Positions 4,685 to 14,683 of a stretch of 64,000 bases of DNA are shown in pieces. Made by a program: the position numbers and the translations under genes. Position 1 is the first letter of the stretch. Each line of letters begins with the position of its first letter. The notes beneath the pieces are model-generated. The model was not told where the DNA came from and searched no databases. It worked only from the letters and a program-made list of their open reading frames with translations. The stretch spans positions 511,001-575,000 of the forward strand of contig NZ_AP023367.1 in the NCBI RefSeq assembly GCF_014218335.1, written 5' to 3'. The DNA is from Anaerocolumna cellulosilytica. Lineage in GTDB: Bacteria; Bacillota; Clostridia; Lachnospirales; Lachnospiraceae.

Positions 4685-4777
4685 ATGGCACAGATAAGAG
4701 AAAGTTGTACCAAAACACAGAGGAAGATTGGAGGATTTTTATATGACAAATGGAAAACGAAAATACCTATCCTGTAA
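4685..4777 (+). CDS. Possible 30-codon leader ORF upstream of mobC
   Basis: ATG 4685 follows a strong AAGGAGAT ribosome site and opens a 30-codon frame (MAQIRESCTKTQRK...) that ends at 4777, inside the start of mobC in another frame. Its stop lies 32 bases after the mobC ATG, so translation of one could couple to the other. It may be a leader peptide or simply a relic of an older mobC start. No family is recognised. Confidence 0.3.
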   Translation: MAQIRESCTKTQRKIGGFLYDKWKTKIPIL

Positions 4778-5111
4778 GAAGGATTGTCATGTTTCTCTAA
4801 AATTATCGGAGGAAGATTTTATAAAGCTGGAATCAGATGCGAAATCAGCAGGAATGGATCGAAGCAAATATTTGCGAGCTTTGATTCAGAATGCAAAAGG
4901 GATTGATCAAACGTATGTGGCAGATAGGGCACAGTTAATCAGAAAGGTTTCGGGAGTATCAAACAATGTGAACCAGATGGCACATTTAGCAAATGCGCAA
5001 GGACAGATATATTTTTCTGCAATAGAAGAGGCTCGTCAGGAAGTGGTCAAGCTTCAGGACATTTTGAAGGAGGTACTAGACGTATGGCAATTACGAAAAT
5101 CATGCACATGA
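4743..5111 (+). CDS. mobC: MobC mobilization / relaxosome protein
   Basis: 122-residue MobC-type accessory protein. An RHH-like N-terminus (HVSLKLSEEDFIKLESDAKSAGMDRSKYLRALI) is followed by the helical region typical of the family (RKVSGVSNNVNQMAHLAN). These proteins bind oriT and help the relaxase nick it. ATG 4743 is preceded by GGAGG at an 8-base spacing; a TTG at 4728 in the same frame is less likely. Its end overlaps the relaxase start by 28 bases, the usual mobC-relaxase arrangement. Confidence 0.85.
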   Translation: MTNGKRKYLSCKKDCHVSLKLSEEDFIKLESDAKSAGMDRSKYLRALIQNAKGIDQTYVADRAQLIRKVSGVSNNVNQMAHLANAQGQIYFSAIEEARQEVVKLQDILKEVLDVWQLRKSCT

Positions 5112-7134
5112 ATTCAGAGAAAAACCGTAATCCGGCACAACATCTTCAAAATGCACTGGAGTATATTCAAAATCCAGACAAGACTGAGAAATTATTTTTG
5201 GTGGGCAGTGTAAACTGCCTGCCAGAAACAGCCTTTGAACAGATGATGGATACAAAGAAGCTGTTTCAGAAGACGAATAAGAGGCAAGGTTATCATATTG
5301 TATTGTCCTTGAAACCGGGAGAGGGAACACCAGAAATTGCATTTGATATGGCACGAAGGTTCACGGAGGAATTTCTTGGTGACAGATATGAAGCTGTTTA
5401 TGCCGTTCATATTGATAAAGATCATATTCATAGTCACATCGTTTGGAATAGTGTGAGTCTTCTTGATGGTAGAAAGTACGATTATAAGAGGGTGACTGGA
5501 AGCATGTGATTCAGCCAATTACCAACAAGCTTTGCAAGGAATATGGATTATCCGTTATCGAAGCAGAGTATGTGAAGAATTCGCAGAATCTTTCCAGAAA
5601 AGAATGGCAATATGAACAGACATTTAAGGAAATGATTCATCGAGACGCAATGTTTTGTGCTTCCTACGCTGGTAGCATGGAACATTTTTTGTTTTTAATG
5701 CAGCGATTAGGCTATGAATTCAAGTCGAAGGAATATCTTACTGTGAAGATGCCAGGACGTAAGCTGTATCATCGTTTGGATAAAATGGATGAATACTTTG
5801 CAGAGGACAGATTCAAATATTGTTTTGAATACACGAGTATGAATATACCCTACTTTCACGCTACAAATCCAACTTGGATAAAGCGCAGTAATATGTCACC
5901 CTATCAAAAAAAGTTTTATGGAAAGATGTATCGTCTGCGTATGATTGAGCAGAAACGTTTTTATGTGAAATCAGCCAAGTATGCAAAAGATTTGATGTTG
6001 TTCCATAAGTTGCAGGAAGAGTACCTTTTTCTTGCAAATAATAATATTCGTACCATAGAGGATCTACTTGATATTAGAGAAAGTAAGCTGGAGCGTATTG
6101 ATGAAATTACAAAGATTCAGGACTCTATTTACAAGCAAAATTCCAGTAAGAAACGAGCTTGTAATTCTGATGGGGATTGGAGGGCGTATCAGAATTGGCG
6201 AATTGACGAGTACAGTAAACTGGATCAGCTAAAGGTAGAGAAAAAAGAAGCCAAGAATATGGTTGCAATGGCTGAGCGATGTTTGGCTGAAAAGTTAGAT
6301 ACAGCAATGGATGTGATATCAGAGTTTGAAGAAATTAATGCTACGAATAAGATTGAAATTCCTGAGTTTGTTGAGGAGCGAGCATTGGAGTCGAAAGCTG
6401 AAATTGTAAGGGAAATTTCTTATTTGGAGGATAAGAAAATATCTATGCATCAGAAACCAATAGCGAAGCCGATGGTATTTTATGAGGAGAAGCCTAAAAG
6501 GGATGAAACGATGCAAGATCATCAGGAGTTGGAGGAGCATATAGAGCAGTCGCAATATCAGAATATCTCGTTACAAGTGGAGCCACTGGCAAGTGAGCAA
6601 GATTTAAAAAGCATTGTACTAGATCAGTCAGAAATAAAACCTGAATTAGTGGCTTATACAGAGTCACTTCCTGATAGGTTTTCGGAGTATTCTCTTTTAT
6701 CTGTAGAAGAAAAAGTGAAGCGTTATCAGATGACAGGTAAGGAGGATACATATGCTATGGTGGAAGCTTATTTTAAGCGCATTGGTCATCCAATTTATTT
6801 TGGAGAAATCTATGATGAAGCGAAAGAACTAGAAACTGCTTATAAATCCAGCTTGATAGAGGAACAATCGGAATTAATAGCTGTAGAAATGCTGGTGGAT
6901 GGAATTACACCTGAATCATATTTTCTTTTATCCGTGGCTTCTAAGGCAAAGTATTTCGAATTTGATATGGCTGATAATAATTATAATTTAAGCTTGTATA
7001 AAGAAGTTATGCGGAAGATGAATCAAAAGATATCCAGTGCTGAATTGTTTGAGGGGTATCAGGAGATTTACGAGGCAAAGATGATGAATCGGATGGTCGG
7101 AATGCAGGAAAAGAAATGGGATAGAAGTAGGTAG
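5084..7134 (+). pseudogene. MobP/VirD2-type relaxase, split by a one-base frameshift
   Basis: Relaxase that would nick oriT and lead the strand into the recipient. The N-terminal part (5084-5509, 141 residues) has the family start MAITKIMHMNSEKNRNPAQH and the metal-binding HIDKDHIHSHIVWNS motif. Its frame then ends in TGA 5507-5509. The next frame carries the expected continuation: reading the other phase from about 5488 gives GDWKHVIQPITNKLCKEYGL, followed by a long helical C-terminus to 7134. The family consensus needs one more base around 5486-5491 (AAG AG GGT). The simplest explanation is a one-base deletion, so full-length protein (about 680 residues) is not made unless this is a sequencing error. 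No slippery heptamer is present. The catalytic half could still be translated alone. Confidence 0.85.
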
Positions 7135-7144
7135 TGTAGTGATG

Positions 7145-7281
7145 TGTTGCTATTTGGTATGTATTACCGGTAGCAACATATTTTGGTGTAAAATAATTAT
7201 TATCATAAAATGGCATAAAACTTCAAAAATCGTTTGTTTTGCAAAAGTGGTTATGGTAAAATGGTTTTAAAATAAAACCAT
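7145..7281. promoter_or_regulatory. Hairpin after relaxase and palindromic operator before the cargo operon
   Basis: After the relaxase stop, TGTTGCTA and TAGCAACA (about 7145-7180) can pair, a possible weak terminator. At 7261-7281 there is a perfect inverted repeat with 9-base arms (ATGGTTTTA/TAAAACCAT) and a 3-base centre, 34 bases upstream of the winged-helix gene start. AT-rich copies resembling half of it (AAAATGG) repeat just upstream at 7208 and 7258. This is a good candidate for an autoregulatory operator at the cargo promoter. No clear -35/-10 pair can be assigned. Confidence 0.5.
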
Positions 7282-7315
7282 AAAAAAATGATTTTTAGAT
7301 AATGAGGATTAGAAT

Positions 7316-7579
7316 ATGAATGAAATACTGGGCTTTGTAAATGAAAAAACAAAGGTATTGGTAATTCTAAAGGAGAATCAATTACAAATCGATGGAAAGA
7401 GCATTTGCCCATTGAATCAGCAAGAAATAGCCAATTTGGTACCCTGTGGAAAACTTAAGGTAAATCAGATATTGAAAGAATTGATTGACGATGGATATGT
7501 TGAAATGCTTCATACAAAAGGTCGGTATATTGTTACGGCTAAGGCATATGAAGTGTTGAAAAAATTGTCGTTTAAGTAG
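7316..7579 (+). CDS. Small winged-helix transcriptional regulator
   Basis: 87-residue protein with a central helix-turn-helix (LNQQEIANLVPCGKLKVNQI) and a following wing (GYVEMLHTKGRYIVTAKAYEVL), like MarR/GntR-type winged helices without an effector domain. It lies directly downstream of the 7261-7281 palindrome and about 100 bases upstream of the helicase-PRTase gene on the same strand. It most likely controls that operon. Small single-domain regulators ahead of defence operons are common, which fits the cargo interpretation, but the partner operator is only inferred. Confidence 0.7.
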   Translation: MNEILGFVNEKTKVLVILKENQLQIDGKSICPLNQQEIANLVPCGKLKVNQILKELIDDGYVEMLHTKGRYIVTAKAYEVLKKLSFK

Positions 7580-7683
7580 TGTAAGTCCTGAAAAATGGAC
7601 AGGGATTATTATACAATTTGTAGAAAAATCGAAAGAACTTTTAGTTGAGTTTGAAAAGAAATCGAATTATGGAGGGGGAAAAA

Positions 7684-9744
7684 ATGGAAGAATTACTTAT
7701 TGAACTAAAAAATACCTATGGAAAAGAAGCAGAATTTAGAGATGGACAACAAGAAGCTATTCAAGGTGTTCTTGACGGAAAGAGATTGTTGGTGGTTCAA
7801 AAAACAGGATGGGGTAAGAGTCTTGTGTACTTTCTTGCAACAAAAGTGTTGAGAAAACGGGGTAAAGGGATAACACTTATTATAAGTCCGTTATTAGCAT
7901 TAATGAATAATCAGATTGAATCAGCTAATAAACTTGGGTTAAATGTTGAAACAATAAACTCTGAAAATGCTGAGGATTGGGACTCTATAACGGAGCAATT
8001 GAGCAAAGGTAATATCGATGCCTTAATAATCTCACCAGAACGATTATCTAATCCAGAGTTTAAAAAGTTACTTATGGATAGGCTCGCAGCACAGATATCT
8101 CTATTTGTTGTTGATGAAGCTCACTGTATTTCAGATTGGGGACATGATTTTAGACCAGATTATAGAAGAATTGTAGATATTATTAATAGATTACCGTCAA
8201 ATATTCCGGTACTTGCAACTACAGCAACGGCAAATGATCGAGTAGTTAATGATATCAAAAAGCAATTAGGGGATAAATTGCTCATAAGTAGAGGTAGCCT
8301 TATGAGAGAATCATTATCATTGCAAGTTATTGAATTACATTCAAAAGAAGCACGAATGGCGTGGATTTTACAAAATATAAATAAAATACCAGGAACAGGT
8401 ATTATTTATTGTTTGACGGTGAATGATTGTAAGTTATTGAATAAATGGTTAAATGAGAATGGAATTAGTAGCGAAAGTTACTTTGCGGGACTAGATGCAG
8501 AAAAGAAAAATGAAGTAGTTAATTCTTTTATGAATAATTCCATAAAAGTTCTTGTTGCTACAGTTGCATTTGGTATGGGGTTCGATAAGCCAGATATAGG
8601 ATTTGTAATTCACTTTCAGAGACCGGGGAATATAGTTGCATATTATCAACAAATCGGTCGTGCAGGCAGAGGAATAGATAAAGCATATGCGATATTATTA
8701 TGTGGTGGTGAAGATGATGATATTAATAATTATTTTATAGATTCAGCGTTTCCAACGGAAGAACTGATGGAGACTATTGTTAATACGGTTATGCAACATC
8801 CTGGAATCAGAATTACTCAGTTAGAAAAGTATATTAATATGAAACCTTCAAAAATTAAGTCATGTGTAAAATATTTGTTAGTAAATGGGGACATTTATGT
8901 TGAAGATAAACAATATTATAAGACAACACGCATATGGAAACCAGATTTAGAGAAGAGTAGAGAAATAACAAATATCAGAAAAAAAGAACTTTTGGAAATA
9001 GAAGAGTTTTCAAAACAAGTTAACTGTTATATGGAGTATATCGCTAATATTTTGGATGACACGGACGCAAAAGCATGTGGATCATGTGAAAATTGTGTTG
9101 GACATCCATTGATAAAAGTTGAAGTACCAGAGATCTTAGTGTTAAAGGCGCAACAATTCATTCGAGAAGATTTTAATATTATTGAAGCAAGAAAACAATG
9201 GCCATCTGGAGAAAGAATTGATGGAGGAAATCGTATTTCTGCTGAATTAATATGCGAGACAGGAAGAGTATTAAGTAATTATGGAGATGCTGGTTGGGGA
9301 AAACTTGTATCAGCAGGCAAGTATAAGGATAATTTTTTTGATGATAAATTAGTGGAGGCATCGGGATTGTTACTTGAAAATTTTATTAGAGATAATAATA
9401 TTAAATGGGTAACAAGTGTGCCATCCATTAGAAGACCAGAATTGGTAAAATCTTTTGCGGAGAGACTGGCTTCAAGATTGGGATTAAAGTATTACGATGC
9501 AATTGAAAAAGTAAATAATAATAGATGCCAAAAAGAATTAAATACAAGTTATTTGCAGTATGAAAATGCATATAATTCTTTTGAGGTGAGCCATGTATAT
9601 GATGAAAATGTTTTATTGGTAGACGATATGGTAGATTCTAGATGGACATTTACAGTATGTGGATATAAACTAAGAAAGAATGGGAGTGGGAGGGTTTTTC
9701 CTTTTGCATTAGCAAACAGTGCAGGTAGAAATGGAGATGAATAA
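7684..9744 (+). CDS. RecQ-type helicase fused to a C-terminal phosphoribosyltransferase domain
   Basis: 686 residues. Residues 1-350 are a RecQ-family superfamily 2 helicase core: Walker A QKTGWGKS, motif Ia ISPLLALMNNQ, DEAH box VVDEAHCISDWGHDF with the RecQ aromatic loop, motif III ATTATAN, and motifs V-VI ATVAFGMGFDKPD and YYQQIGRAGRG. A RecQ-like zinc/winged-helix part ends with CGSCENCVG near residue 470. The HRDC domain is absent. In its place about 190 residues form a type I PRTase fold ending in the PRPP-binding loop VLLVDDMVDSRWT near residue 655. ATG 7684 is chosen for GGAGGGGG six bases upstream; the earlier TTG 7645 lacks a site. The stop abuts the ATG of the DprA-like gene. Substrate and reaction are unknown. 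By analogy with ComFA/ComFC a DNA-handling role is likely. Confidence 0.85.
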   Translation: MEELLIELKNTYGKEAEFRDGQQEAIQGVLDGKRLLVVQKTGWGKSLVYFLATKVLRKRGKGITLIISPLLALMNNQIESANKLGLNVETINSENAEDWDSITEQLSKGNIDALIISPERLSNPEFKKLLMDRLAAQISLFVVDEAHCISDWGHDFRPDYRRIVDIINRLPSNIPVLATTATANDRVVNDIKKQLGDKLLISRGSLMRESLSLQVIELHSKEARMAWILQNINKIPGTGIIYCLTVNDCKLLNKWLNENGISSESYFAGLDAEKKNEVVNSFMNNSIKVLVATVAFGMGFDKPDIGFVIHFQRPGNIVAYYQQIGRAGRGIDKAYAILLCGGEDDDINNYFIDSAFPTEELMETIVNTVMQHPGIRITQLEKYINMKPSKIKSCVKYLLVNGDIYVEDKQYYKTTRIWKPDLEKSREITNIRKKELLEIEEFSKQVNCYMEYIANILDDTDAKACGSCENCVGHPLIKVEVPEILVLKAQQFIREDFNIIEARKQWPSGERIDGGNRISAELICETGRVLSNYGDAGWGKLVSAGKYKDNFFDDKLVEASGLLLENFIRDNNIKWVTSVPSIRRPELVKSFAERLASRLGLKYYDAIEKVNNNRCQKELNTSYLQYENAYNSFEVSHVYDENVLLVDDMVDSRWTFTVCGYKLRKNGSGRVFPFALANSAGRNGDE

Positions 9745-10953
9745 ATGAAATTTTCAGATAATGCAATGAGCGCAATTTTATTGTGCAGCTACATTGGAAT
9801 TAATAAAGACGATACAGCGAAGCCGTTCTCACTTGGTGAGTGGAATCAGTTTTTGGACAAAGTTATTGATATGAAACTCGACCCAAGTGTTGTATTAAGC
9901 AATGATATGGGAATGTTAACTCGATTAAAATATAGTAGTAATGAAATTGAACGAATAAAAAAATTGGTATCGCGTGGTGGGGCTGTTGCGTTTGAAATTG
10001 ATGATTTGTCAAACAAAGGAATAGAAGTAATAACGTTATTTGATGCGGACTATCCGGTGCTATTAAAAAGAAAATTAAAAAGAAAAACACCTCCAATTTT
10101 ATTTTATGCGGGTGATATTAATTTGGCAAAGAAAATAGGAATTGCTGTTGTTGGGTCAAGAGATGTGGATCAAGCTGGAATGGAGTTTACAAGAAAACTT
10201 GTGTCTAGAGCTTCTGAAGAAAGATTGGTTGTATATTCAGGAGGAGCAAAAGGTGTTGATTCAATATCGGAAATAACCGCAATCGAAAACGGTAGTGCTG
10301 TTGTATCATTCATTGCAGATTCACTAAGTGCTAAAATAAAGAAGAAAGAAGTACTTAAAAATATATTACAGCAGAAATTATTACTAATTTCAGATGTAAA
10401 ACCAGAAGCAGGATTTAGTGCGGCTAGAGCTATGAATAGAAATAAATATATATATGCAGCTGCTTATGGAGCGTTTGTTATTTCTTCAGACTATAACAAA
10501 GGTGGAACATGGGCTGGTGCAATTGAAAATATAAAAAATGATTGGACAAAAGAGTTTGTTTGGAATCATAAAGAATATAATGGAAATATAAAGCTTATTG
10601 AAAAAGGAGCTATTCCATATGAGTTAAGCGATGAAAAAATATATGATTCGATAACAAAAAAAGAAAGCAGTTACAATCAATTAGATATATTTAATCTAAC
10701 CACTACGATAGTTAATGAAACTTCAAATGAGTATAAAAAAATAGAAAATCAAAACATCGTGATTTCGCAAGATATTTATGAAGTTGTTAAAGATTATATT
10801 GTAGGAAATATAGGAAGTGGGTTGAGTCTGGAACAAGCGTCAGAACAGTTTAAGGTTGCGAAAGGTCAGATGAAAATATGGTTAAAAAGATTATGTGATG
10901 ACGAAAAGATTATACTTGAAAATGCTATCTATTCAAAAAAATCTACAAACTAA
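9745..10953 (+). CDS. DprA/Smf-like DNA-processing protein
   Basis: 402 residues. The centre holds the DprA Rossmann-like core: LFDADYPVLLKRKLKRKTPP, ILFYAGDINL, IAVVGSRDVDQAG, VVYSGGAKGVDS and SDYNKGGTW. In the family this fold binds single-stranded DNA and loads RecA. The N-terminus is helical and the C-terminus (about 330-395) looks like a winged helix. It starts on the base after the upstream stop, so the two proteins are made together. It differs from housekeeping DprA in its diverged start and long C-terminal extension, and it sits in a mobile element. I call it DprA-like rather than dprA. A conflict-system role is inference. Confidence 0.85.
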   Translation: MKFSDNAMSAILLCSYIGINKDDTAKPFSLGEWNQFLDKVIDMKLDPSVVLSNDMGMLTRLKYSSNEIERIKKLVSRGGAVAFEIDDLSNKGIEVITLFDADYPVLLKRKLKRKTPPILFYAGDINLAKKIGIAVVGSRDVDQAGMEFTRKLVSRASEERLVVYSGGAKGVDSISEITAIENGSAVVSFIADSLSAKIKKKEVLKNILQQKLLLISDVKPEAGFSAARAMNRNKYIYAAAYGAFVISSDYNKGGTWAGAIENIKNDWTKEFVWNHKEYNGNIKLIEKGAIPYELSDEKIYDSITKKESSYNQLDIFNLTTTIVNETSNEYKKIENQNIVISQDIYEVVKDYIVGNIGSGLSLEQASEQFKVAKGQMKIWLKRLCDDEKIILENAIYSKKSTN

Positions 10954-10964
10954 TTATAACAACT

Positions 10965-13900
10965 ATGAAAAAGATTCAGGAGGTTGAAGTATTGGAATTT
11001 ATTGAAGAAGAAATAATAAAAATATTAACACTAAAACCTTCTGAATGTGCATATTTGGATTATAAAGAAGTGCCGTATATGACAAATAAAAAGCATGATT
11101 TTATCAAAGATGTAATTGCAATGCTAAATTCTGAAGAAGCATATGCAAAGGATAAAGTAATTGTCATCGGTGTTGTAGATCAGAATAAATACTTAAAAGG
11201 AATTGATATTCAGCAGTGGACAGATGACAATATTTTTCAAAATTGGATTGATAATATTGACCCGAGACCAAGTATTCAAACTGGTACTGTGGAATACGAA
11301 GAGAAGACTTTTGGATATATTTTTATAAGTAAAGAAAACATAAAAAGAATATATGAAGTAAATAAAACGGTTATCGGTGAAAAAAGTGACCAAGCTTCAG
11401 TAAAAGCGGGAGTTTATCAAGGACAAGCTTTTACACGGCAAGGTAGTAGAAATAGTATTTTGATGCAGAATGAACGTGAAGAGATTACTAAAAAGAAAAT
11501 AAGACCTGATGATAAAGAATATATTGCATATAGAAGTGTTAATACATATAATCCGATGACTAAGATAAAACCTATAGTTGTTGCTGCATTAGTAGGCGAG
11601 TGGAACGAAAATAATACTGGTGATTTATCTGTTATAGAAGAAATATATGGAGGAACATATAATCTTTTTATTAGAGATATAAGGATTTTTTATGAGAGCA
11701 ACAAGGATAACATAGAGCTTGTTGACAATAGATGGAAAATAAATAATCGCTTATCTTTATTGCAAGAAATTGCAAATGAGATTTACGATGAACATATAGA
11801 TGGTCTTTTTTTCAATATTCAAAAAATATGGGGAGAAGTAGACCCCAAATACGGCTTACCATCAGAGCAAAGATATGCAAGTAGCGTATATTTAAAGAAT
11901 GAAAAGAAGGTTTATTCAAACAATATACGCAGAGGATTAATTGAGTTTATGGCAATTGCAGGAAATAATACTGAGTTGTTTGTTTCATGTTCTAGATATA
12001 AGATAGAAAACTGTATAGCTAAGGAAATAACAAAAATATTTACCTGTAATGACTGGAAAGTTTATGCTAGTTTATCCGAAGAGTTAGATCTTTTGGCGGA
12101 ATCAAATCCAGAAACATTTTTGAGTGAACTTGAAAAAGCATTAAGAAATAAAAAAAGTTCATTTATTGACTATCTTAATCAAAAGGAAACGGGAATATCA
12201 GAAACAAAATATGGATATCAATTAGGGTGGACACTAGCAAAATTGGCATCATATTCAGAATATTTTGCAAAATCATGTAGTGTATTGTTTCTGTTGTCTG
12301 AGTTTAGATTAGATTTTCTTCCTACGTTAGTTGGAATTGTTCTGCCGTGGTATCCTCAAACTACTGCTAAGCCAAATGTTAGAATTGGCATGATTAAAGG
12401 TTTGTTAGCTGAGAATATAGAAGTGGGCTGGAATTTATTGATGATGTTAATGCCTAAAAAGACTACAATAGGAAATCCGGTGCAACAAGCTAAGTATATG
12501 AAAAACAATATTTTGCCAGAAAGTGTAACGAATAAAGAATTTTGGGAGCTAACCATAGCATATATAAGAATTGCATGTACCTATGCCATAGGAGATTGTT
12601 CTAAATTACTTCAGTTTGTTGATATAATTGATGATGTGCCTGTAGAAATTTTTATGGAAGTTATCGAAACATTCAAAAAAAGTACTCCAATACTTAATAA
12701 TAGTGAAAAAGAAATTATTTGGAACAAAATTGAGGATTTGATAACAAAACATCGAAAATATAGTTCTTCAAATTGGGCACTGCCAGAGGAAGCAATTAAA
12801 GTGTTGGAAGATTTATTAATAGACTATTTTCCAAACGATGAATATATTCAAAACAAAAGAATGTTTCGTAAAGAACAATATGAACTGGTTGATAGAAAAG
12901 ATAATTGGGAAGAAGCTGAAAAAGGTATTTTTGAAAGGCAAAAAGAGATTATAAAAATTATTTATAAGGAAGGGGGAGTTGAAGCAGTATATCAATTTAA
13001 TGAAAATATAGAGAGAGTAGATATTGCAGGAAGGTGCTTGGCATATATTCGGTTAACTGCTAAAGAAAGTAAATCTGTAATAGAAAAGTTGGAAAGCAAT
13101 ATTTTAAAGAAAACAGAATTTGTTCGTGGATTTATTTTGGAAATATACTATAAAAATAGAGTTAATTTAGATAAAATACTTAATAAAATTAATAGCGAAA
13201 TGGTAAAAATAAAAGTTTTTGCTATTCTCCCGATTTCAGAAGAGAATATTAATGAAGTGAAGAATTTTTCGGGTGAAGTTCAAAACTTTTATTGGGAAAA
13301 TATAGACATATGGGGAGCTGATAAATTATCTATTGAATACTTTGAGTTTGCAGTAAAAAAACTTAATGAAGTAAAAAGAATTAGTAAATCGATTGAGTTG
13401 ATATATTATATAGGTATTCATAACAAATTGAAATTTGATGTTTTATTGATTTATAATACATTAAACTTATATGTAGGTCACCAAAATACAGATCCAGTAG
13501 ATGCTTACAAATTGGGCGAATTAATTGGTAGGTTGCAAAATGAATGTGACGATGAAGAAACAATAGTGGAGATAGAGTGGAAATACCTTAATATATTGGA
13601 TGGAGATGGTGAACATACACCAAAATATTTATATCGAAAATTGTCAACTAAACCAGAATTTTTTATGGAAATACTATCAGTAGCATTTAAAGCTAGAAAT
13701 GAAGAAAAGAGAAATCTAACTGAACAAGAAAAAATATTAGCTAGTCACTGTCATAAATTATTGTTTTCTTGGAAATTAGTTCCAGGTTTATTGGAGGATG
13801 GAAGTATGGATTATACCTTGCTCAGTTATTGGTTTGATACTGTGAGTGGTGTAAGTAAAGACAAGGATAGATACGGAGTTGCTATGACTTATTTTGGACA

Positions 13901-14219
13901 TACTTTGTTCCATGCACCTGCTGACAAGGATAGGTTCTTCATTGATAGAAAAATTGCAGAGATATTACAAAATGATATTGAGGGGAATATTCGAAGTGGA
14001 TATTCTACAGAAGCTTATAATTCAAGAGGAGTGCATTGGGTTGATCCAACTGGTTCGGCAGAATTTATGCTGGAAGAAGCTTATAATAAAAAAGCTGAAG
14101 AATCAGAAGTAAATGGATATTTTAGATTAGGAGAGATGTTACGAAAAATATCAAAATCCTATCATTATGAAGCTATTCATAATATTGAAGAAGAAAAACA
14201 ATGGAGTAAGGAATCCTAA
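10965..14219 (+). CDS. Large AlbA_2 (Schlafen-type) domain protein
   Basis: 1084 residues. Roughly residues 15-170 match the AlbA_2/Slfn divergent AAA-linked domain: CAYLDYKEVPY, DFIKDVIAMLNSE, KVIVIGVVD and YLKGID. This is the segment that serves as a nucleic-acid-binding or nuclease-like module in other proteins. The remaining 900 residues are predominantly helical and charged, with no motif I can name. ATG 10965 has no ribosome site, whereas an in-frame TTG at 10992 has CAGGAGG eight bases upstream and may be the true start. The gene follows the DprA-like gene by 11 bases and ends the operon. It may be the effector or sensor of the cargo system; that is inference. Confidence 0.75.
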   Translation: MKKIQEVEVLEFIEEEIIKILTLKPSECAYLDYKEVPYMTNKKHDFIKDVIAMLNSEEAYAKDKVIVIGVVDQNKYLKGIDIQQWTDDNIFQNWIDNIDPRPSIQTGTVEYEEKTFGYIFISKENIKRIYEVNKTVIGEKSDQASVKAGVYQGQAFTRQGSRNSILMQNEREEITKKKIRPDDKEYIAYRSVNTYNPMTKIKPIVVAALVGEWNENNTGDLSVIEEIYGGTYNLFIRDIRIFYESNKDNIELVDNRWKINNRLSLLQEIANEIYDEHIDGLFFNIQKIWGEVDPKYGLPSEQRYASSVYLKNEKKVYSNNIRRGLIEFMAIAGNNTELFVSCSRYKIENCIAKEITKIFTCNDWKVYASLSEELDLLAESNPETFLSELEKALRNKKSSFIDYLNQKETGISETKYGYQLGWTLAKLASYSEYFAKSCSVLFLLSEFRLDFLPTLVGIVLPWYPQTTAKPNVRIGMIKGLLAENIEVGWNLLMMLMPKKTTIGNPVQQAKYMKNNILPESVTNKEFWELTIAYIRIACTYAIGDCSKLLQFVDIIDDVPVEIFMEVIETFKKSTPILNNSEKEIIWNKIEDLITKHRKYSSSNWALPEEAIKVLEDLLIDYFPNDEYIQNKRMFRKEQYELVDRKDNWEEAEKGIFERQKEIIKIIYKEGGVEAVYQFNENIERVDIAGRCLAYIRLTAKESKSVIEKLESNILKKTEFVRGFILEIYYKNRVNLDKILNKINSEMVKIKVFAILPISEENINEVKNFSGEVQNFYWENIDIWGADKLSIEYFEFAVKKLNEVKRISKSIELIYYIGIHNKLKFDVLLIYNTLNLYVGHQNTDPVDAYKLGELIGRLQNECDDEETIVEIEWKYLNILDGDGEHTPKYLYRKLSTKPEFFMEILSVAFKARNEEKRNLTEQEKILASHCHKLLFSWKLVPGLLEDGSMDYTLLSYWFDTVSGVSKDKDRYGVAMTYFGHTLFHAPADKDRFFIDRKIAEILQNDIEGNIRSGYSTEAYNSRGVHWVDPTGSAEFMLEEAYNKKAEESEVNGYFRLGEMLRKISKSYHYEAIHNIEEEKQWSKES

Positions 14220-14683
14220 TATTTCAATTAATTAGCAAGAACACGCCATGATACCGTTATGATACCCGAAGCTTATTATACTCAAAATAATACATAGAAT
14301 TGGCGGACAAAAAGCAATCAAATGACAGTAAAAATATCAAATAGATTCGCCTTAAAGCGAATGGTCAGGGAGTTTGAATGACCTGAAGACACTGGGAAGC
14401 CGCTAAATAAGCGACTTCCCAGTGTTTGTGTCAGTAAAATGTCAGCAGAATTTAGAATCACGATAGGATAATAATGTTGAATCGCAGGGGTGAACATTTA
14501 AAAATATTTAGAAAAAGAGATTCGTTTTTTAAGAATAGTAATATATAATTGTTTATGTAGAAAAATAGTCCTTATTCTGCAGACTCTAATTTCATTGTGG
14601 AATAGGGCAGTATTTATAAACTATGAGAATGACAAATTAGAATTTCTCGCAGAGTGGGTTCACTATCCTTTTTTCTTTAGCTA
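14220..14683. other. Right end region of the mobile element, with terminator-like hairpin
   Basis: 464 bases without a gene, between the cargo operon and the first chromosomal-looking gene. Near the start ATGATACC occurs twice with an 11-base period (14249, 14260). At 14345-14362 there is ATTCGC/GCGAAT, and at 14363-14383 GGTCA/TGACC. At 14390-14424 there is a strong hairpin with 10-base outer arms (CACTGGGAAG/CTTCCCAGTG) and inner CGCT/AGCG pairs, followed by TTTGTG. TGTCAGTAAAA and TGACAGTAAAA copies flank it. The hairpin could end the cargo transcript. The short direct repeats resemble integrase arm sites. The att core cannot be fixed because the left junction is outside the window. Confidence 0.45.

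Follow-up and report, generated by a model that had tools for sequence, protein, structure and literature searches.

The stretch of DNA analysed here (64,000 nucleotides, hereafter the window) comes from the forward strand of Anaerocolumna cellulosilytica contig NZ_AP023367.1, positions 511,001 to 575,000, in a genome that forms a single contig of 5.43 Mb. Behind a relaxase gene the window carries four codirectional genes, encoding a small winged helix-turn-helix (wHTH) protein, a RecQ-type helicase with a C-terminal phosphoribosyltransferase (PRTase) domain, a DprA-like protein and a very large protein with an AlbA_2 domain and an alpha-solenoid, here called the giant. An earlier note on this DNA had proposed that the four genes form one undescribed system. 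The analysis below makes it likely that they are independent modules standing behind one leading regulator in the defence-cargo slot of a mobilizable element beside guaA. The features of the slot are as follows.

7316-7579, + strand: wHTH protein of 87 amino acids (aa), predicted regulator of the cargo slot
7684-9744, + strand: PsyrT, RecQ-type helicase with C-terminal PRTase, toxin of PsyrTA (ATG at 7684; alternative upstream TTG at 7645)
9745-10953, + strand: PsyrA, DprA-like antitoxin of PsyrTA (PADLOC PDLC03927)
10965-14219, + strand: the giant, an AlbA_2-winged helix-alpha-solenoid protein of 1084 aa, independent candidate defence gene
10965-11498, + strand: AlbA_2 domain of the giant, aa 1-178, of the Schlafen/SAMD9 tRNase type by Pfam and fold matches
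11043-11066, + strand: ExxxxDxK motif (E27, D32, K34), counterpart of the Schlafen ExxxxExK active site
11565-14204, + strand: winged-helix-like unit (about aa 201-262) and alpha-solenoid (aa 262-1080), a module also present in proteins with other N-termini
7254-7281, + strand: extended -10-like promoter element TGG-TAAAAT (7254-7262) adjoining the dyad at 7261-7281, predicted to serve the wHTH protein as the operator of its own gene

Much of the earlier description was borne out. The four open reading frames (ORFs) lie behind the relaxase gene in one direction, the gaps among the last three are 0 and 11 bases, the palindrome before the regulator is real (9-nt arms at 7261-7281, 100% complementary) and the domain calls (wHTH, RecQ with PRTase, DprA-like, AlbA_2) were correct. 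The ATG of psyrT at 7684 is preceded by GGAGGGGG, a good ribosome-binding sequence, and the ATG of the giant, read from the sequence, has no clear Shine-Dalgarno sequence upstream.

The two middle genes have named PADLOC profiles, which the earlier note had missed. The helicase matched PDLC03928 (PsyrT) with an E-value of 1.2e-273 and 907.6 bits over profile positions 6-686 of 689, and the DprA-like protein matched PDLC03927 (PsyrA) with 1.9e-103 and 344.6 bits over positions 1-387 of 398, as well as DNA_processg_A in Pfam (2.1e-35). PsyrT contains a DEAH motif at aa 144 and a phosphoribosyl pyrophosphate (PRPP) motif, LLVDDMVDS, at aa 644. Because Pribosyltran in Pfam stayed below cut-off (E 0.14), the PRTase call is based on the PsyrT profile together with the PRPP motif. 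By these matches the second and third genes are full-length PsyrT and PsyrA, a known toxin-antitoxin and defence pair. Existing models name two of the four genes, which goes part of the way to what the earlier note had said would refute it.

Like the PsyrTA/RqlHI systems, the pair consists of a RecQ helicase with a C-terminal PRTase and a DprA-like partner 0 bases behind it, with the PRPP loop kept; it differs from them in the wHTH gene ahead and the AlbA_2-solenoid gene behind. In E. coli, RqlH and RqlI are encoded in an operon and bind each other, and the toxicity of RqlH resides in its PRTase domain and is restrained by RqlI (PMC4670107). The systems syrTA, rqlHI and shosTA have been grouped as those with DprA-type antitoxins, and a DprA-PRTase pair was active against T7 and lambda (PMC9122126).

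Recurrence of the four genes

Five of 397 family genomes have a PsyrA match with an E-value of 2.2e-93 or lower; the match that ranks next (2.6e-37) falls within the range of housekeeping DprA. PsyrT was detected at 1e-150 or better in 5 of 398 phylum genomes. The locus in the window is included in both counts, leaving 8 other PsyrTA loci, at all of which stretches of 14-20 kb were read. The two genes were adjacent at every one of them, with psyrT split into two ORFs in L066 and psyrA disrupted in L067. No ORF at the 8 loci matched the wHTH protein or the giant (phmmer, 1e-5), an absence that counts for less at two of them, where the DNA behind psyrA was short (37 bases in L066 and 600 bases in L070). 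In the four family genomes among the 8, that of L066 included, the giant was unmatched genome-wide.

The giant was matched in 7 of 397 family genomes, and its AlbA_2 part in 3 of these; the matches in G394 and G225 were partial with stop codons, and those in G033 and G318 covered the solenoid half only. When genome contigs were scanned with an alignment of three sequences, 14 loci were obtained, of which 9 held near-full-length giants (L045-L053, with those of L050 and L052 in two ORFs each). Two of the 9, L045 and L053, were treated as the same loci as the family hits in G112 and G009 and counted once. Left out of this count were L054 and L055, whose ORFs are short, and L056-L058, which hold other AlbA_2 proteins. 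Neither PsyrT nor PsyrA was found in the 3.8-23 kb surrounding the 9 other full-length giants, the contig of L047 being too short to judge. Among plasmids, PsyrT was matched in 13 records at an E limit of 1e-80 and relatives of the giant in 35, of which 30 were listed; no accession appears in both the 13 and the 30.

The full combination was therefore seen at its own locus only, and the four-gene unit was rejected, as recurrence was found neither at the 8 PsyrTA loci nor beside the 9 giants. The co-occurrence in unrelated elements that the earlier note had proposed to look for did not appear, and its central claim is given up: a single new system made of all four genes is improbable, and they look like three modules of different origin. 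As a separate observation, a distant ORF in L056 matched PsyrT at 2.2e-6.

The AlbA_2-solenoid protein

In Pfam, SLFN_AlbA_2 (E 1.7e-11, aa 29-163) was the sole match of the giant above cut-off, and PADLOC gave nothing up to E 1. An AlphaFold2 model of the full protein, made with 8 sequences, reached a mean predicted local distance difference test score (pLDDT) of 80.9 and a predicted template modelling score (pTM) of 0.51, and places in order the AlbA_2 domain, a low-confidence linker (179-200), the winged-helix-like unit and helices to the end. Modelled alone, the AlbA_2 domain reached a pLDDT of 87.0 and a pTM of 0.83. Its best match in PDB was the SAMD9 tRNase domain (E 1.9e-5), followed in order by a human SAMD9 domain with DNA, SLFN14, SLFN13 and the bacterial protein 3lmm. 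A fold search with the full-length model returned generic HEAT/ARM solenoids with query template modelling (TM) scores of 0.06-0.24 in the 50 rows listed and was not used for function.

The giant shares the AlbA_2 fold and a large C-terminal helical part with the Schlafen proteins (SLFN11/13/14) and SAMD9/SAMD9L. It differs from them in having ExxxxDxK in place of ExxxxExK, in that no Sir2 or SAM domain was detected and in a solenoid akin to that of bacterial proteins with other N-termini. SAMD9 family members carry a STAND NTPase with a P-loop after the AlbA_2 domain, whereas in the model of the giant a winged-helix-like unit and the solenoid take that place; no Walker A pattern was found and no NTPase stood above the Pfam cut-off. 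With no P-loop found, the giant was rejected as a SAMD9 homologue. In SLFN14 both glutamates and the lysine of the ExxxxExK site are essential (PMC12215978).

The motif bears on whether the AlbA_2 domain is a nuclease at all. A nucleic-acid-binding module devoid of nuclease activity would suit the aspartate at the second acidic position, and some bacterial AlbA_2 proteins are regulators. We consider this unlikely, since E27, D32 and K34 were invariant in 13 of 13 aligned sequences, the others being 27-50% identical to the giant, and the best fold match is a tRNase.

The 880 residues of the giant that lie outside the AlbA_2 domain are also found in proteins with other N-termini. Relatives of the giant were matched in 35 of 72,556 plasmid records (30 of the 35 listed); in 11 of these a match region spanned 80% or more of the query, and in 9 of the 11 the match began at residue 144 or later, so that the solenoid was aligned without the AlbA_2 domain. 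Solenoid carriers in L005, L007 and L008 have a helix-turn-helix (HTH) lead, a 924-aa protein in L002 starts near the solenoid, and solenoid proteins in L003, L004 and L011 gave no Pfam hits. The giant is read here as a putative sensor with an exchangeable effector, in this case probably a ribonuclease (RNase). No match was obtained in phage records, and none of 59 pattern matches in viral contigs was confirmed.

Several of the 9 relatives stand close to DNA-directed systems. The distance is 28 bases behind HsdR of type I restriction-modification (R-M) operons in both L045 and L050, and 20 bases behind HsdS in L053. In L048 a 164-aa ORF separates the giant from the HsdS gene of a type I R-M operon 1.9 kb ahead, and in L051 the giant follows a 215-aa ORF by 16 bases, with an N6-methyltransferase (MTase) and GmrSD, as a pair, ahead of that ORF and 0.9 kb from the giant. 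A solenoid protein with another N-terminus stands 121 bases behind HsdR in L073. Because relatives follow restriction systems in several other genomes, the giant may act as a second RNase layer to the DNA-directed system ahead of it. The same placing would suit a giant that guards its neighbour, its RNase being freed when a phage interferes with that neighbour. PrrC-type anticodon nucleases are embedded in type I R-M loci and follow a guard-like logic. The likeness is that 3 of the 9 relatives, as RNase-type genes, closely follow type I R-M genes; the domain architecture of the giant differs from that of PrrC, it stands here behind PsyrTA, and guarding would be its role by analogy. We hold the guard explanation to be doubtful, as copies in L046, L049 and L052 have no R-M neighbour and PsyrTA is not a restriction system.

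One paper states that RNases of the Schlafen family are widely linked to BREX loci, and it cites a 2025 preprint on bacterial Schlafens (PMC12839542). The literature search left the impression that both the wHTH regulator and the AlbA_2-solenoid family are undescribed, which is weak evidence, as subscription papers and preprints were mostly outside its coverage. The two are candidate new families of known kinds, whereas the core pair is known and the arrangement is a new mixture.

Some further observations were made on the solenoid family. Some of its N-termini look nuclease-like by eye. In L046 the giant stands beside a convergent DUF4238 gene (L046:4427-5338), and the annotation of L004 and L006 likewise places DUF4238 genes close to solenoid-family genes. 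A 1281-aa protein bearing a P-loop directly follows the HTH-led solenoid protein on a Rhizobium plasmid (L005:10911-14756). Among six solenoid proteins and the L049 giant searched with PADLOC, two gave HTH-region matches and PD-Lambda-4_A fragments (1.7e-4 and 0.0023) too weak to use, and five gave nothing; a look for that system in PMC9519451 under one term did not find its name.

The leading regulator, its cargo and its predicted operator

The wHTH protein was matched at 1e-4 in 8 of 250 family genomes, its own included, and at 1e-8 in 2 of 291 class genomes, one of them its own, which gave 9 loci in total; one of these (L108, genome G040) contained stop codons. Pfam matches up to E 1 were HTH types, a DUF and a weak SAM_PNT, none above cut-off, with no WYL match in that range, and PADLOC gave only weak matches (WH_III-A 0.0022, PDC-M13A 0.03). 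No match was found on plasmids, and none of 35 pattern matches in viral contigs was confirmed. The cargo, counted as genes directly behind the wHTH gene and codirectional with it, was as follows.

Window: PsyrTA
L097:4606-14961: DruA (PADLOC 7.8e-134) with SspF-, SspG- and SspH-like genes, on the same mobilization backbone
L098:5476-10421 (genome G059): type II MTase, GHKL ATPase, 213-aa ORF and HNH
L108:4260-9487 (genome G040, decayed wHTH): set like that of L098 by ORF layout, MTase confirmed
L100: HsdR-HsdM
L105: HSDR_N/N6-MTase/specificity fusion
L106: type IIG enzyme, MTase, PDC-M46A/B, LmuA-like protein and type IV enzyme
L107: HsdR-HsdM-HsdS
L099, ambiguous: 296-aa ORF without hits, DUF1848 and an AlbA_2-HATPase protein

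At 8 of the 9 loci (7 of the 8 others) the wHTH gene is thus directly followed by defence or restriction genes, which differ in kind. This linkage supports the earlier suggestion of defence genes in this slot and stands without a base rate for arbitrary small regulators. The fusion in L105 is a single 974-aa protein (L105:5506-8427) that joins an N6-MTase and two specificity domains to an HSDR_N region. The four-gene set of L098 and L108 gave generic MTase matches in PADLOC, and weak ones or none for the rest tested.

The palindrome at 7261-7281 reads ATGGTTTTA-AAA-TAAAACCAT, with nine perfect pairs. The pattern TAWAAT-RGTT-N9-AACY, preceded by TGN as in extended -10 promoters, was found 47-59 bases before the start codon of the wHTH gene in the window and of its three closest homologues (L097, L098 and L099). 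It occurs once in the 64 kb of the window and once in each of the three other loci, upstream of the wHTH gene, and is not present in L074, the stretch left of the window. The best shared 27-mer in the 130 bases upstream of these four wHTH genes covers the palindrome site with a score of 59, which none of 150 first-order Markov shuffles reached (maximum 54), so the palindrome is beyond chance; the gapped pattern appeared in 0, 2 and 0 of 20000 shuffles per homologue. Both of these joint tests were made after the alignment had been seen. Tested one homologue at a time, the operator was matched in L097 at 22 of 27 positions, a score that none of 2000 shuffles reached (0.0025 for the operator part by itself), and weakly in L098 (0.04) and L100 (0.03, with the match out of register); L099, L105, L106 and L107 were not significant.

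Small regulator genes heading diverse defence operons are known from BrxR/CapW, CapK-CapS, CapH-CapP and RptR. Ahead of diverse defence systems, BrxR binds inverted repeats that adjoin the -10 box in its own promoter, and 6 homologues were reported in 607 Firmicutes genomes (PMC9122601). The present locus resembles this in an inverted repeat beside its own -10 box, here of a predicted promoter, with defence genes downstream. It differs in an 87-aa wHTH protein in which WYL and STAS were not detected and in the site RGTT-N9-AACY; moreover, 8 of the 9 wHTH loci belong to a single family, probably Lachnospiraceae, whose phylum has few BrxR homologues. RptR (PMC12255303) and CapK-CapS (PMC13373217) are further small regulators of defence operons. 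RptR is a 79-aa HTH protein acting on repeated TAGCTA-type sites; by eye, the region 7135-7316 contains no TAGCTA and one variant, TAGATA.

The best reading of these comparisons of sequence is that the wHTH protein is probably a small autoregulator of a swappable defence slot, which now holds PsyrTA and a putative solenoid-sensor RNase. It might instead regulate transfer of the element, the cargo being downstream only as the slot adjoins, and the position of the wHTH gene directly after the relaxase gene, here and in L097, would agree with this. Such a role is rather improbable, given that in L100, L105 and L107 the wHTH gene stands before R-M genes with no match to the integrase, MobC or relaxase of the element (phmmer, stretch read), and that the operator-like pattern occurs once per locus, upstream of the wHTH gene.

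A proposed explanation and the surrounding element

In the reading preferred here, that of independent modules behind a leading regulator, the wHTH protein would bind the dyad next to its extended -10 promoter, holding the cargo transcript at a low level, while the cargo varies from genome to genome as listed above. By analogy with the published RqlHI work, PsyrA would restrain the PRTase-bearing helicase PsyrT, which infection or a DNA disturbance might then free. The giant would act separately: its alpha-solenoid would sense a trigger, and its Schlafen/SAMD9-type domain, judging from fold and motif, would cut RNA, probably tRNA, and stop translation. That the giant and the wHTH protein are lineage-specific subunits of a PsyrTA variant, functional only together, would accord with the tight spacing and single direction of the genes and the lack of a terminator-like site between them, and is very improbable in view of the recurrence counts in the DNA read and of the other cargo that the wHTH gene heads in other genomes.

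Besides the short flanks, the missing base rate and the timing of the joint tests noted above, several points weigh against the preferred reading. In one study, PsyrTA cloned in E. coli K-12 gave no detectable protection against 15 phages, and a growth defect was seen (PMC12409345). Only 11 bases, and no terminator-like site, separate psyrA from the giant, so the two are probably co-transcribed and could cooperate. Query-normalised TM-scores of the AlbA_2 model to SAMD9 and Schlafen structures were modest (about 0.3-0.49), the top TM-score among the listed rows (0.52) belonged to 3lmm, an uncharacterised bacterial protein, and the second acidic residue was D, not the E of Schlafen, in every aligned member. 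The gapped pattern is absent upstream of the wHTH gene in L100, and the site of the window was not matched above chance at L105-L107. The proposed promoter was missing from the output of a simple sigma-70 scan, whose promoter-like sites (38, against 41.0 expected) showed no excess.

The claimed new operon is thus dropped and replaced by two better-defined objects, the regulator and the AlbA_2-solenoid family. The wHTH gene keeps its position, and in the closest homologues its operator-like site, while the defence cargo changes. More broadly, and as a tentative proposal that we rate somewhat below an even chance, the wHTH protein would found a family of controllers indifferent to their cargo, carried by mobile elements of Lachnospiraceae and related groups, with captured defence operons under a self-repressing extended -10/RGTT-N9-AACY switch, and the AlbA_2-solenoid protein would be a bacterial SAMD9-like second-layer RNase behind restriction or toxin systems. 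If this is true, toxic or restricting cargo could enter a new host silently and be swapped freely. If the regulator and the AlbA_2-solenoid family are as read here, they would help to show how a mobile element can carry harmful defence genes into a new host that survives their arrival, and whether Schlafen/SAMD9-type tRNases form a second layer behind bacterial restriction systems. The direct predictions are the DNA site 7254-7281 for the wHTH protein and the three residues E27, D32 and K34 for the giant.

The remaining features of the element in and around the window are given below; negative positions lie to the left of the window.

1-989, + strand: tyrosine integrase, ORF start at -108 outside the window (Phage_integrase 1.7e-16)
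4728-5111, + strand: MobC/NikA-like mobilization protein (NikA-like 1.3e-10, MobC 1.9e-10)
5084-7134, + strand: relaxase (Pfam) in two overlapping frames, 5084-5509 and 5506-7134
14249-14266, + strand: probable right end of the element, TGATACC-N4-TGATACC, with the same pair at -5312

The ParM and Rep names of other backbone genes were assigned by eye. The relaxase frame 5084-5509 is the nuclease domain (Pfam Relaxase 4.4e-34), and the frame 5506-7134 had no Pfam match at 0.001. For the backbone comparison three relaxase matches (L076-L078) were used, the one from G019 being L097. In L101 and L102 the relaxase is a single ORF of 601 and 589 aa, compared with the two overlapping frames of the window, where it may be broken or translationally coupled; no match to the wHTH protein was present in the stretches read of these two loci.

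The end of guaA lies near -5371, and directly after it, at -5312, stands the paired TGATACC heptamer that is matched by the identical pair at 14249. The pair was spotted by eye and searched for afterwards. From these positions the element would measure about 19.6 kb and be inserted at a guaA-linked site. Direct repeats between its ends were limited to a 14-mer and a 12-mer, both chance-like. The left end of the element (L074, about -5289 to -1403) carries reverse-strand ORFs of 294, 370 and 383 aa, a possible second cargo set, with zero PADLOC matches at 1e-5.

In the congener G345, DNA matching the window from 31733 onward was found about 6 kb after guaA. The congener G024 has one TGATACC heptamer directly after guaA and a pair 5.3 kb further on, and the insertion beside guaA there (L088) is a different one flanked by the same heptamers, so that the guaA site looks like a recurrent integration point.

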